A DNA stretch of 44,211 nt from Rhodobacterales bacterium 32-67-9. Lineage in GTDB: Bacteria > Pseudomonadota > Alphaproteobacteria > Rhodobacterales > Rhodobacteraceae. The stretch covers positions 1-44,211 of the forward strand of contig NCEA01000037.1 of NCBI GenBank assembly GCA_002280515.1, read 5' to 3'. Under the pieces are notes generated by a model that was not told the DNA's origin, did no database searches, and saw nothing but the letters and a program-made list of their open reading frames with translations. The translations under genes and the position numbers were made by a program. Shown here piece after piece: positions 33,243 to 44,211 of the stretch; within the stretch, counting starts at the first letter, position 1, and every line of letters begins with the position of its first letter.

Positions 33243-34367
33243 ATGCTCCGCCGCCTGTACCACGAACAACCGGCCGCCTTCGCCTTCACCCCTGCGAACC
33301 TCGCTTGGGCGAAGGGGCAGATTTCGAAATACCCCGAGGGCCGTCAGGCCAGCGCGATCATCCCGCTTCTCTGGCGCGCGCAGGAGCAGGAGGGCTGGCT
33401 CTCGCGTCCGGCGATCGAGCATGTCGCCGACATGCTCGGCATGGCCCATATCAGGGCACTGGAAGTCGCCACCTTCTACTTCATGTTCCAGCTGCAACCC
33501 GTTGGTTCCGTTGCCCATATCCAGATCTGCGGCACCACCTCCTGCATGATCTGCGGGTCGGGCGCGCTGATCGCCGTCTGCAAGGACAGGATCGCGGCCC
33601 AGCCACACACCCTGTCCGCCGACGGCAAGTTTTCCTGGGAAGAGGTCGAATGCCTCGGTTCCTGCGCCAACGCGCCGATGGCGCAGATCGGCAAGGATTA
33701 CTACGAGGACCTGACGGCAGCGCGTCTGGGCCAGCTTCTCGACGATCTCGCCGCCGGCAAGGTTCCGGTGCCTGGGCCGCAGACCGGGCGCTATTCGTCA
33801 GAGCCGGCAAACGGCCTGACCAGCCTCAAGGAATTCGAGAGTGGGCGGACGAAATACAATGCCTCGGTCCAGCGCGCGGTGGATATCGGCGATACCGTGA
33901 AGCGGATCGACGGCACCGAGGTGCCGCTTCTGACGCCGTGGCTCGGCACCGCCGCACCGGCAAAGGGCCGCGCGGGGGGCGCGAAAGCCGAGAAACCGGC
34001 GAAAGCCGCGCCACCGGCGAAATCCAAGGCTGCCGAAGCCCCGGCGCCAGCGCCAGTCGAACCGGCCGCCGCCGCGAAGCCGAAAAAGCCGCGCGCGCTG
34101 AAGGCGCCGCGCAAGGGCGGGGCGGATGACCTGAAGATGATCAAGGGCGTCGGACCGAAGCTCGAGGCGCTGCTGCACAGCCTCGGCTTCTATCATTTCG
34201 ACCAGGTCGCCGGCTGGACCGCCGCCGAACTGGCCTGGGTCGACGACAGTCTGGAAGGCTTCAGGGGGCGCGCGAGCCGCGACGGCTGGATCGAACAGGC
34301 GAAACTCCTTGCCGGAGGCGGCGAGACGGAGTTCTCCAAACGGGTGAAGAAAGGCAATGTGTACTGA
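33243..34367 (+). CDS. nuoE: NADH-quinone oxidoreductase subunit E with C-terminal H3TH-like tail
   Basis: A 374-aa protein. Residues 1 to about 170 are the thioredoxin-like NuoE domain with [2Fe-2S] cluster N1a ligands Cys96, Cys101 (CGTTSC), Cys137 and Cys141 (CLGSC). A linker rich in Ala, Pro and Lys follows (about 235-290). An 80-residue tail (295-374) begins [17 protein letters not shown], a helix-hairpin-helix/H3TH pattern (COG3743-like). Paracoccus Nqo2 is about 240 aa, so this is longer by the tail. The same tail ends the next protein. Only a weak ribosome site (GGGA, ten bases away) precedes it, behind the AT-richer insertion. Confidence 0.92.
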
Positions 34368-34392: not shown

Positions 34393-35241
34393 ATGTCTGA
34401 GACTTCACAGGCGGAGTGCCGCCGGAATTCGTGGCTGGTCGCGCTGGCCGGCGGGGTGCTTTTGGCTCTGATGCTGACGATGGTCGCCGATTACGCGGTC
34501 CTGAAGGCGTTGATCATCGGGCTGATCTTCTTCGTGGCGCTCGGCGCTTTCCTCGTCTGGGCCTTCTGTTCGCGGAGCGAAGAGGCGACGAAACCGGCAC
34601 CGATGGCGGAACCGGCGGCCCGTCCCGCAGCGCCTGCCGCGCGCCCGGCCCCGGAGACCGTGGCGCGCGCGCCAGAGCCCGTTGCCGCACCTGCCGAACC
34701 TGCCGCCGCGCCCATCGCCGAAGCCGCGCGGTTCGCCGCGTCGACCACGTCGGCCGCTGCCCCCGCCGAGGTCGCGAAAGCGCCGAAGCAGGCCGCCAAG
34801 CCCAAGGCGCCTGCCAAGGCCGCGCCGAAACCCGCTGCCAAGGCCGCGCCGCCGAAACCCGCTGCCAAGGCCGCTCCGGCTGCCGTCAAGCCGGCGACCG
34901 AGACGGCGCAGGGCCTCGACGCGGCGCTGGCGAAATCCAAGGACGAGCCGAAGTCGGCCACGCCCGAATTGCTGCGCGCGCCGCGCGGCGGCAAGGCGGA
35001 CGACCTGAAGATGATCAAGGGCGTCGGTCCGAAGCTCGAAAAGCTGCTCAACGATGCCGGCGTCTGGCACTTCGACCAGATCGCGTCGTGGAAGGCCAGG
35101 GACATCGCCTTCGTCGACGACAAGATGGTGGGCTTCCACGGCCGCATCACCCGCGACGAGTGGGTCAAGCAGGCCAAGGTGCTGGCCGCAGGCGGCAAGA
35201 CGGAGTTTTCGGCGCGCGTCGCCAAAGGGGACGTGTACTGA
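34393..35241 (+). CDS. Membrane-anchored H3TH-domain protein, paralogous to the NuoE tail
   Basis: A 282-aa protein. Two N-terminal membrane segments (about 12-33 and 36-57: WLVALAGGVLLALMLTMVADY; ALIIGLIFFVALGAFLVWAFC) are followed by a long low-complexity Ala/Pro/Lys region (about 65-200) with PAAKAAP-type repeats. The final 80 residues (203-282) are the same helix-hairpin-helix module as in NuoE, about 52 of 80 identical by eye, and both proteins end in KG-N/D-VY. This domain group was named after flap endonuclease H3TH motifs, but no nuclease residues are evident. A role in complex I assembly or tethering is speculation. Confidence 0.75.
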   Translation: MSETSQAECRRNSWLVALAGGVLLALMLTMVADYAVLKALIIGLIFFVALGAFLVWAFCSRSEEATKPAPMAEPAARPAAPAARPAPETVARAPEPVAAPAEPAAAPIAEAARFAASTTSAAAPAEVAKAPKQAAKPKAPAKAAPKPAAKAAPPKPAAKAAPAAVKPATETAQGLDAALAKSKDEPKSATPELLRAPRGGKADDLKMIKGVGPKLEKLLNDAGVWHFDQIASWKARDIAFVDDKMVGFHGRITRDEWVKQAKVLAAGGKTEFSARVAKGDVY

Positions 35242-36926: not shown

Positions 36927-37210
36927 CGATCCTCTCCTTCCTCGGCCCCGTCATCGCCTCGGTACTCTACATCATCGTCTTCCAGAAGGCGGGGTTCCGG
37001 GGGGCGATCCTCTTTGTCTGCGCGGCCCCCGTCCTCGGCGCGATCCTGACCCGCGTCCTCGTCGCCTCGATGGTCATGGGCGGCGGTCCGATGGCCGGGG
37101 TGTTCCTGCTCTCGGCGGCGCTGTCGCTCGCGCCGCTTCTCGTTCTGGCCTTCATGGCCTGGCCGCCGGCGGAGACGCCGGAGGCCCGCACTTCCACGGA
37201 GAATAACTGA
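36923..37210 (+). CDS. Small membrane protein between nuoF and nuoG (95 aa)
   Basis: A 95-aa hydrophobic protein with about three membrane segments (residues 3-20, 27-50 and 57-80) and a polar, Pro/Glu-rich tail ([15 protein letters not shown]). It overlaps the previous frame by 4 bp and nuoG by 1 bp, so it is translated within the operon. No function is recognisable; it is likely one of the extra reading frames typical of alphaproteobacterial complex I operons. Confidence 0.7.
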
Positions 37211-39093
37211 TGTCCAACCTCCGCAAGATCATCATCGACGGTATCGAGGTCGAGGTCGATCCGAGCCTCACGCTCATTCAGGCCTGCGAACAGGCGGGGG
37301 TGGAAATTCCGCGCTTCTGCTACCACGAGCGGCTCTCCATCGCCGGCAACTGCCGGATGTGCCTTGTCGAGGTCGTCGGCGGCCCGCCGAAGCCGGCCGC
37401 CTCCTGCGCGATGCAGGTCAAGGACCTGCGGCCGGGGCCGAACGGCGAGCCGTCGGTCATCAAGACCAATTCGCCGATGGTCAAGAAGGCCCGCGAAGGG
37501 GTGATGGAGTTCCTGCTGATCAACCATCCCCTCGACTGCCCGATCTCCTGCACCCGCTGCGTGCGCTTCACCACCGAGGTCGCGGGGATCACCCAGATGG
37601 GCCAGACCGGGCGCGGCGAGGATGCGGAGATCACCTCCTACCTCAACACCACGCTCGATTCGAACCTTCAGGGCAATATCATCGACCTTTGCCCGGTCGG
37701 CGCGCTGACCTCCAAGCCCTACGCCTTCACCGCGCGGCCGTGGGAGCTGACCAAGACCGAGACCATCGACGTGATGGATGCGCTCGGCGCCAACATCCGC
37801 GTCGACACCAAGGGGCGCGAGGTGATGCGCATCCTGCCGCGCAACCATGACGGCGTGAACGAGGAATGGATCAGCGACAAGACCCGCTTCGTCTGGGACG
37901 GGTTGCGGCGTCAGCGTCTGGATACGCCCTATATCCGCGAGCGCGGCAAGCTCCGCAAGGCAAGCTGGCCAGAGGCCCTTGCCGCCGCCGCAAAGGCGAT
38001 GAAGGGCCGCAAGGTCGCCGGTCTGGTGGGCGATCTGGCCCCGGTCGAGGCCGCCTTCAGCCTCAAGCAACTGATCGAGGGGCAGGGCGGCACGGTCGAA
38101 TGCCGCACCGACGGCGCGCGGCTGCCTGCCGGCAATCGCTCGGCCTATGTCGGCACCGCGCGGATCGAGGATATCGACGCCGCCCGCGCGATCTTCCTGA
38201 TCGGCACCAACCCGCGTACCGAGGCGCCGGTGCTGAACGCGCGCATCCGCAAGGCCTGGGCAAATGGTGCCAAGGTGGCGCTGGTCGGCAAGGCCGTGGA
38301 CCTGACCTACGACTATGAGCACATGGGCACTGACCGGCAGGCGCTGGTACAGGCCGCCGGGGCCAAGGAGAGGCTCGCGGCGTGCCGCGATCTCAATGCC
38401 GTGGTCATCGTCGGGCAGGGCGCGCTCCGCGAGGCCGATGGCGAAGCGGTGCTGGCGCATGCGATGAAGATCGCCGAAGCGTCCAACAGCAAGCTTCTGG
38501 TCCTCCACACAGCCGCCGCCCGTGTCGGCGCGATGGATGTCGGTGCCGTGACCGAGGGCGGCTTGCCGGCCGCTATCGACGGCGCCGAGGTCATCTACAA
38601 TCTCGGCGCCGACGAGGTGGAGATCGCGGCCGGCGCGACTGTCATCTATCAGGGCAGCCACGGCGACCGCGGCGCCCACCGGGCCGACATCATCCTGCCC
38701 GCCGCCGCCTGGACCGAGGAAAACGGCCTTTTCGTCAACACCGAAGGGCGCCCGCAGCTTGCCATGCGGGCGGGCTTCGCCCCCGGCGAGGCGAAGGAGA
38801 ACTGGGCGATCCTCCGGGCGCTCTCGGCGGAACTTGGCGCGACCCAGCCCTGGGACACGCTCGCGGCTCTGCGGACGGCGCTGGTCGCGGCGCATCCGCA
38901 TCTCGCCCAGGTCGACGCGGTCGCGGCGAACGAATGGCGCCCGCTGCCGGTCAAGGCGCCGGGCAAGGCCGGTTTCCTGAACGCGGTTGCCGATTTCTAC
39001 CTGACGAACCCGATCGCGCGCGCCTCGCAGGTCATGGCGGAGCTGTCCGCGATGGCGAAGGCGCGGGCCGAAAAACCGATGGCGGCGGAATGA
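37210..39093 (+). CDS. nuoG: NADH-quinone oxidoreductase subunit G with an internal deletion
   Basis: A 627-aa iron-sulfur subunit. The N1b ligands Cys37, 48, 51 and 66 are present. The N5 motif normally reads H-x3-C-x2-C-x5-C and the N4 motif C-x2-C-x2-C. Here INHPLDCPI (His106, Cys110) runs straight into SCTRCVRF (Cys114, Cys117), so the second and third N5 cysteines, the intervening stretch and the first N4 cysteine are missing. The last N4 ligand (Cys161, DLCPVGAL) remains. Paracoccus Nqo3 is about 673 aa, so roughly 46-47 residues are lost in frame at about 37543-37548. The remainder (molybdopterin-oxidoreductase-like domain) is intact. Electron flow between N4 and N6a should fail if this is real. 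Confidence 0.93.
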
Positions 39094-41060: not shown

Positions 41061-41477
41061 GTGGGAGCCTGGGGACTAGGAGCATTTGAAGACGACGCCG
41101 CGCTTGACTGGCGTGACGAATCGTTTGCTTCGACGGGTGTTCAGGCCGTCATAATTGCATTGCAGGCTGCGTCCAAAACGAGCCCTGACGATTACTTGGA
41201 ATATGTTGCCGGAGTTGAGGCGCGCGCCGCTGCTGAGGTGGTGGCAATCGCATTTGGTAAACCTGCCTCGGGAACATCTCATGATGACATCAATGACGTG
41301 AAGCCACACGTGGCGGAGATCCGGGCAATAGCAGGTATCAGGCCTTTGGCACTGAAGGCGATGAATCGCGTTTCCGCGGATAACTCTGAAATTGCAGAGC
41401 TTTGGCGGGAAAATGGCCCGGTGGAGTTCGATCAGGCGATCGCCGACCTTATCAACCGGTTGGGGGGCGCCGAATGA
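41061..41477 (+). CDS. DUF4259 domain protein inserted in the nuo operon
   Basis: A 138-aa protein starting at GTG with AAGGAAAAG upstream. The N-terminus MGAWGLGAFEDDAALDWRDE is the DUF4259 hallmark (GxWGxGxFEDDxALDW). The rest is helical (VQAVIIALQAASKTSPDDYLE; LWRENGPVEFDQAIADLINR). The gene is clearly lower in G+C than its neighbours and uses codons rare here (ATA, TTT, CTA, AAT), suggesting acquisition by transfer. Its stop overlaps the next start by 4 bp. Function is unknown; DUF4259 genes are often single and scattered. It is not a typical nuo operon member. Confidence 0.75.
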   Translation: MGAWGLGAFEDDAALDWRDESFASTGVQAVIIALQAASKTSPDDYLEYVAGVEARAAAEVVAIAFGKPASGTSHDDINDVKPHVAEIRAIAGIRPLALKAMNRVSADNSEIAELWRENGPVEFDQAIADLINRLGGAE

Positions 41478-41905
41478 CCGACGCCTTCCAGAAGCTTTTC
41501 CAGCAGATGATGGAGCAGGGCCAGGAAATGGCCCGCGCCTTCAACCCTGCGCTGGAGAATTTCTCGCCCGCGAGCATGGAGAAGCTTTTCCCCACCATGT
41601 CGAAGGACATGATGGAGCTGTGGTTCGGCAAGACCTTCAACCGTGAGGGGCTCGATGCCAAGACCCGGCTTCTGGTCACGGTCGCGGCGCTGACCGTGCT
41701 TGGCGCGCAGGCCGAGCCACAGATGAAGCTGACGATCCGCCACGCGCTCGAAGCCGGAGCGACCAAGCGCGAGATCGCGGAAGTGATCTATCAGATGAGC
41801 ATGTTCGGCGGGGTGCCCGCCATGAACAAGGCGTTGGAGATCGCCCAGGGCGTCTTCGACGAGGCCGCCGACAAGACCGGCGACAAAACGGGAGATGACG
41901 CATGA
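41474..41905 (+). CDS. Carboxymuconolactone decarboxylase (CMD) family protein
   Basis: A 143-aa helical protein. [45 protein letters not shown] and [17 protein letters not shown] match the CMD fold. There is no cysteine at all, so the AhpD-type CxxC redox chemistry is excluded; a decarboxylase-like or structural role remains possible. The Asp/Lys-rich C-terminus ([11 protein letters not shown]) is low complexity. It overlaps nuoJ by 4 bp. CMD genes at this place are seen in some related operons, but no function in complex I is established. Confidence 0.8.
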
Positions 41906-42946: not shown

Positions 42947-42949
42947 AGC

Positions 42950-44211
42950 ATGGAAACGATCATCCTCTTTGCCCCGCTTGTAGGCGCGATCATCGGCGGC
43001 TTCGGCTGGCGCGTGATTGGCGAGACCGGCGCCCTTGTGGTGACCACGGGGCTTCTCTTCCTCGCCATGCTCTTGTCGTGGATCACCTTCCTCGGTTTCG
43101 ACGGCACCACCCAAAATATCCACATCCTCGACTTCATCCGCTCCGGCACGCTCGACACCGCGTGGTCGATCCGGCTCGACCGGCTGACGGCGATCATGCT
43201 GATCGTGGTGACGACGGTGTCGGCGCTCGTCCACCTCTATTCCTGGGGCTACATGGCCCATGACGAGAACTGGCGCGAAGGCGAAAGCTACAAGCCCCGA
43301 TTCTTCGCCTATCTCTCGTTCTTCACCTTCGCGATGCTGGCGCTGGTGACGGCCGACAACCTCGTCCAGATGTTCTTCGGATGGGAGGGCGTGGGCGTCG
43401 CCTCCTACCTCCTCATCGGGTTCTACTACCGGAAAGCCTCTGCCAATGCCGCCGCGATAAAGGCCTTCGTGGTCAACCGGATCGGCGACTTCGGCTTCGC
43501 GCTCGGCATCTTCGGCCTCTTCTACCTTGTCGACAGTATCAACATGGATGATGTCTTCGCCGCAGGACCCACGCTGGCCGAGACGCAACTGACTTTCCTC
43601 TGGACCGAGTGGAATGCGGCGAACCTTCTGGCCTTCCTCCTCTTCGTCGGCGCGATGGGCAAGTCGGCGCAGCTTTTCCTCCACACCTGGCTGCCGGACG
43701 CGATGGAAGGCCCGACACCGGTTTCCGCGCTGATCCATGCCGCGACGATGGTGACGGCGGGGGTATTCCTCGTCGCCCGCATGTCGCCGCTCTTCGAATA
43801 CGCGCCCGAGGCGAAGACCTTCGTGATGTATGTCGGCGCGGCGACGGCGTTCTTCGGTGCCTCGGTGGGCATGGCGCAAAACGACATCAAGCGCGTCGTC
43901 GCCTATTCCACGACCTCGCAGCTCGGTTACATGTTCGTGGCCGCCGGCGCGGGCATCTACGGCGCGGCGATCTTCCACCTTCTGACCCACGCCTTCTTCA
44001 AGGCGCTCCTGTTCCTGAGCTCCGGCTCGGTGATCACCGCGATGCATCACGAGCAGGACATGCGAAACTACGGCGGCCTCAGGAAGAAGATCCCCTACAC
44101 GTTCTGGGCGATGATGATCGGCACGCTGGCGATCACCGGCGTCGGCATCCCGCTGACCACGATCGGGTTTGCAGGCTTCCTGTCGAAGGACGCGATCATC
44201 GAGAGCAGCTT
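42950..44211 (+). CDS. nuoL: NADH-quinone oxidoreductase subunit L, N-terminal part
   Basis: The first 420 codons of the large antiporter-like subunit; the frame is open at the window end. Hallmarks include the [20 protein letters not shown] segment with its glutamate, the [36 protein letters not shown] region with the key lysine, [18 protein letters not shown] and [11 protein letters not shown]. The ATG lies three bases after the nuoK stop. The missing C-terminus should contain the long lateral helix. nuoM and nuoN presumably follow outside the window. Confidence 0.95.

Follow-up and report, generated by a model that had tools for sequence, protein, structure and literature searches.

Does the nuoG gene of Rhodobacterales bacterium 32-67-9 encode a complex I subunit that has lost its N5 iron-sulfur site, or does the assembled sequence lack a stretch that the organism itself still carries? 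The window, i.e., the whole stretch of DNA analysed here, is one entire contig of 44,211 bases from a draft genome of 60 contigs. nuoG lies at positions 37210 to 39093 of the forward strand, within a nuo operon that has nuoB to nuoF upstream and nuoH to nuoK and part of nuoL downstream. As assembled, the gene encodes 627 residues, and in the translation of this reading frame INHPLDCPI runs straight into SCTRCVRF. Comparison with orthologues placed the absence of 47 codons (141 bp) at an ATCT junction (positions 37543 to 37546, forward strand), with the reading frame preserved. The initial annotation had described an in-frame deletion joining the N5 and N4 motifs here and had estimated its size at about 46 to 47 residues (about 140 bp); its sequence and coordinates were accurate, and the measured size agrees with its estimate. 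We give a probability of roughly 60% to the reading that this 141-bp gap is absent from the genome of the living organism and that the deletion arose in vitro or during assembly.

The title of a 2008 paper, cited in PMC10373349 and PMC13073174, names HxxxCxxCxxxxxC as the N5 motif. Only the His (37525 to 37527) and the first Cys (37537 to 37539) of that motif are left in the window protein, both encoded on the forward strand. The N5-site domain PF10588 was matched over positions 1 to 40 of 40 in two intact orthologues, one from the same genus and one from Paracoccus denitrificans, but in the window protein over positions 1 to 18 of 40 only, at 23.8 bits, below the cut-off of 27. In a genome search, the same nuoG stretch scored 26.6 bits and passed the cut-off once in-frame neighbours were added (27.9). 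Among the N4 cysteines, the one lost within the 47-residue segment is presumably the first of the set, and those encoded at 37549 to 37551 and 37558 to 37560 (forward strand) presumably the second and third. A further conserved cysteine, C161 of the window protein (37690 to 37692, forward strand), was kept according to the alignment, and we take it to be the fourth N4 ligand. The loss of two N5 ligands and one N4 ligand, as originally proposed, thus corresponds to the cysteines at ligand places 3 and 4 of HxxxCxxCxxxxxC and the first N4 cysteine, so that neither the complete N5 motif nor the full set of four N4 cysteines is present. The remaining NuoG domains were found, namely the 2Fe-2S domain, the 4Fe-4S domains Fer4_Nqo3 and Fer4_NDSU1, the molybdopterin-like domain and the C-terminal domain, with Fer4_Nqo3 matched over positions 10 to 67 of 67 only. 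AlphaFold models were poor in this region for both the window protein (residues 97 to 237) and an intact orthologue (residues 96 to 284).

The nearest well-known system is Nqo3 (NuoG) of P. denitrificans, encoded by the same gene in the same operon, which is 82% identical to the window protein in a 21-sequence alignment and matches it in all other domains, but retains the 47 residues missing from the window protein, and with them the remainder of the N5 motif and the first cysteine of N4. The best match in the PDB, chain G of 8qby (Paracoccus Nqo3, 674 residues), aligned with the window protein in two parts, covering residues 1 to 113 and 103 to 627. The junction stretch spans 16 residues (48 nt) in the window and 63 residues (189 nt) in 27 of the 29 relative loci compared, the other two (L016 and L028) being without a match to the junction motif. 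A single intact length together with the His-Cys-Cys-Cys pattern was found in all 80 named loci, these being the best 80 of 588 found.

We also searched 101 genomes, the organism's own and 100 others, of which 93 had a NuoG match. Judged by best matches, none of the 92 other genomes with a match had one running across the junction from residue 1; in them, no best match begins before residue 78, and for many relatives the matches listed include a second one over residues 1 to 113. The fused form was likewise found in none of the 20 same-genus genomes, out of 21 besides the own one, that gave a match; the remaining genome has a completeness of 77%. In genome_contigs, from which the organism's own and very near genomes may be missing, a degenerate pattern of the fused junction hit nothing; both this search and that of the 101 genomes may miss very near relatives. 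With the gap absent from every relative examined, a trait of the clade was not supported.

The remainder of nuoG showed no sign of decay. Across 18 same-genus orthologues, 357 columns are invariant, and the window protein departs from none of them, while the other orthologues, handled likewise, had 0 to 13 changes each. The dN/dS ratios of the window gene against four relatives were 0.128 to 0.182, compared with 0.100 to 0.167 for six pairs of intact genes. An old pseudogene was not supported by these values, which lie near those of the intact pairs, or by the invariant columns, which were kept. The absence of decay across the remaining gene indicates that constraint on nuoG either persists or ended only recently, and that the deletion, if real, is young.

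One alternative to an artefact is a working variant, in which a hybrid cluster bound by the His, the first N5 cysteine and the remaining N4 cysteines would replace N4 and N5 and pass electrons to N6a. The open frame and the other conserved NuoG columns, which are kept, are compatible with such an arrangement. A second protein from the same genome (L002, on contig C59) suggests, moreover, that the domain can exist without an N5 site, since its NuoG-like N-terminal iron-sulfur region is without HxxxCxxCxxxxxC but keeps CxxCxxC. L002 belongs to a different enzyme, is encoded beside NuoE- and NuoF-like frames, and resembles NuoG in two pieces that show 41% and 30% identity; by resemblance it would be a formate-dehydrogenase-type subunit. 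Its sequence reads as one in which ligands were substituted and no long stretch was excised, unlike the window NuoG; of the 47 columns lost there, 39 show at least 90% identity in the 21-sequence alignment. In addition, no intermediate state was seen in any relative examined, and a single cluster would have to bridge more, the step from N5 to N6a being already the longest in the complex I electron chain. The literature searched, by titles and abstract openings, described no natural NuoG without N5. A working variant is very improbable in our judgement. Were it real and functional, it would be an exception to what every intact relative examined here shows and would probe the extent to which the complex I electron chain tolerates shortening; more likely, the locus serves as a warning that a lone gap, if in frame, can make a draft genome seem to encode a new enzyme.

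The leading alternative is that the deletion is real and recent, having arisen by replication slippage between short repeats in the cells that were sequenced. Complex I would then be disabled: electrons could no longer pass from flavin to quinone, the complex would be dead or unassembled, and the cells would either rely on other dehydrogenases or represent a transient mutant in the culture or population. The clean in-frame junction is in line with this, as is the dN/dS ratio for the pair formed with G013 (0.182), slightly above the range of the intact pairs. Four bases, ATCT, are common to both ends of the missing segment in 13 of 18 same-genus orthologues, and at least four shared end bases were found in about 3% of random deletions of 100 to 200 bp in the L005 locus. 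The initial annotation had proposed that the normal flanks share ATCT, which is correct for these 13 but not for the other five, four of which share the T only and one ATC. It had further offered a short-repeat deletion or an assembly collapse as the origin. The shared bases fit the former, while a collapse in a k-mer graph is doubtful since a 4-base repeat would be too short; they would suit slippage, a template switch (in the cell or during amplification) or an overlap join better. The shared bases and the preserved frame consequently fit real slippage as well as they fit an artefact. A hairpin-driven deletion was also considered and rejected, as the corresponding stretch in L006 folds no more than its shuffles (z of -0.18).

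Whether cells could sustain such a lesion depends on other entry routes for NADH electrons. Reports on related bacteria differ. According to PMC8115037, complex I is essential in P. denitrificans unless NDH-2 is supplied. PMC4859585, by comparison, describes Rhodobacter sphaeroides without complex I as able to grow aerobically at a reduced rate, and reports no significant effect under aerobic conditions in R. capsulatus. By analogy, the dispensability in these two species would speak for a real deletion and against an artefact, whereas the essentiality in P. denitrificans would speak against a real one.

The organism's own genome, which is 93.64% complete, so that a missing gene may be unassembled, was searched for such routes. 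NqrA was not found. The NDH-2 C-terminal domain PF22366 was not found either, although this is a weak test, being positive in 5 of 14 control genomes and negative in Escherichia coli. The pyridine-nucleotide oxidoreductase domain PF07992 had 25 matches, 10 of which were scanned with NCBIfam and 5 more read by eye. None of the 10 scanned matches was identified as an NDH-2: four were above the curated cut-off for other enzymes (lipoamide dehydrogenase, glutathione reductase, a SelD fusion and thioredoxin reductase), and six were above none, with a sub-cut-off likeness to ferredoxin reductase, glutamate-synthase-type, sulfide-quinone-reductase-type and similar enzymes. A protein search for a second nuoG gave the one nuoG and weak pieces on contigs C59 and C24. 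The second nuo or ndh gene that had been suggested as a check was hence not found in these limited searches of the own genome. The absence of a detected NDH-2 or NqrA, combined with the essentiality of complex I in P. denitrificans, implies that fixation of such a loss should be fatal or have severe effects, and loss of complex I should be costly for this organism.

Nor was the missing segment itself found elsewhere in the own genome. When DNA of the G019 locus was compared with it, the flanks were matched and the segment was not (40 of 338 first-look candidates were scored), and PF10588 gave the nuoG stub and one sub-cut-off match (E of 0.585, positions 21 to 37). G019 itself has a second NuoG start on the small contig C278 (positions 81 to 419), 92% identical over residues 1 to 113, with the full gene on contig C210; the extra start possibly stems from a second strain or from contamination. 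Another genome of the genus, G014, carries on contig C15 (L181) a second, more distant NuoG that is 56% identical, so two NuoG proteins occur in part of the genus.

The state of the assembly bears on both remaining explanations. Every other nuo gene had initially been described as intact, which does not apply to nuoL (42947 to 44211, forward strand): it is truncated by the contig end and continues on contig C4, with about 0.4 kb absent compared with G013. This is plainly an assembly gap and the second place at which the operon lost sequence, which weighs against reading the nuoG gap as a real deletion. Apart from this, the window appeared clean. In an audit of its genes (40 rows, 36 used; NuoA and hyp3 were left out, and GATase and ProC had one relative only), NuoG alone among the 36 genes with two or more relatives had a unique internal deletion of at least 5 residues. 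The unique deletions in these genes were the 47 residues of NuoG, 2, 1 and 1 residues in a low-complexity ORF, and a single residue at one protein's end. Insertions that were likewise unique, 3 to 18 residues long, occurred at the protein starts of GntR, MCCA and ECH, together with one of 9 residues and two smaller ones in the low-complexity ORF and one of 2 residues in NuoG.

A second, partly overlapping audit of 39 genes from the window and 100 kb of C4 gave the same outcome. The own genome (G000) had six gaps of at least 5 residues in four genes, nuoG included; the five outside nuoG, in three genes, fall upstream of probable start codons, leaving NuoG again as the sole gene with a unique internal deletion of this size. 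Four gaps in two reading frames were found for G013, and none for G020, G001 and G002. Two G000 reading frames, one of them the low-complexity ORF at 34393 to 35241, were matched over shorter lengths than others. A generally bad assembly was not supported, as the NuoG gap stands alone in both audits, and this clean state elsewhere counts for a real deletion and against an artefact.

Weighing these observations, we rank an artefact first because the loss is unique, because the draft contig that carries it has another gap close by, and because the only NADH:quinone route found would otherwise be gone. A template molecule that slipped or became chimeric during amplification or library preparation, or a join in a region of low coverage, may have united two ATCT copies lying 141 bp apart, and the assembly would then have carried the shortened nuoG through; the in-vitro or assembly origin, and the step responsible, are our inferences. 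In the organism itself, NuoG is probably of the usual kind, about 674 residues long and with both N4 and N5 complete. A real, recent deletion is possible but rather unlikely in our estimation. The three options left side by side by the initial annotation can thus be ordered as error, then fresh lesion, then working variant. The relatives, the constraint test, the bypass search and the contig breaks permit this ranking even where reads are not used, but they do not separate the first two options.

Two further features of the operon were observed. NuoE (33243 to 34367) and the ORF that follows it (34393 to 35241) have, in their translations, similar C-terminal domains joined by linkers rich in Ala, Pro and Lys. 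Between nuoI and nuoJ lies an ORF at about 41474 to 41905, which presumably resembles a carboxymuconolactone-decarboxylase-type protein and whose DNA is present in G013 too.
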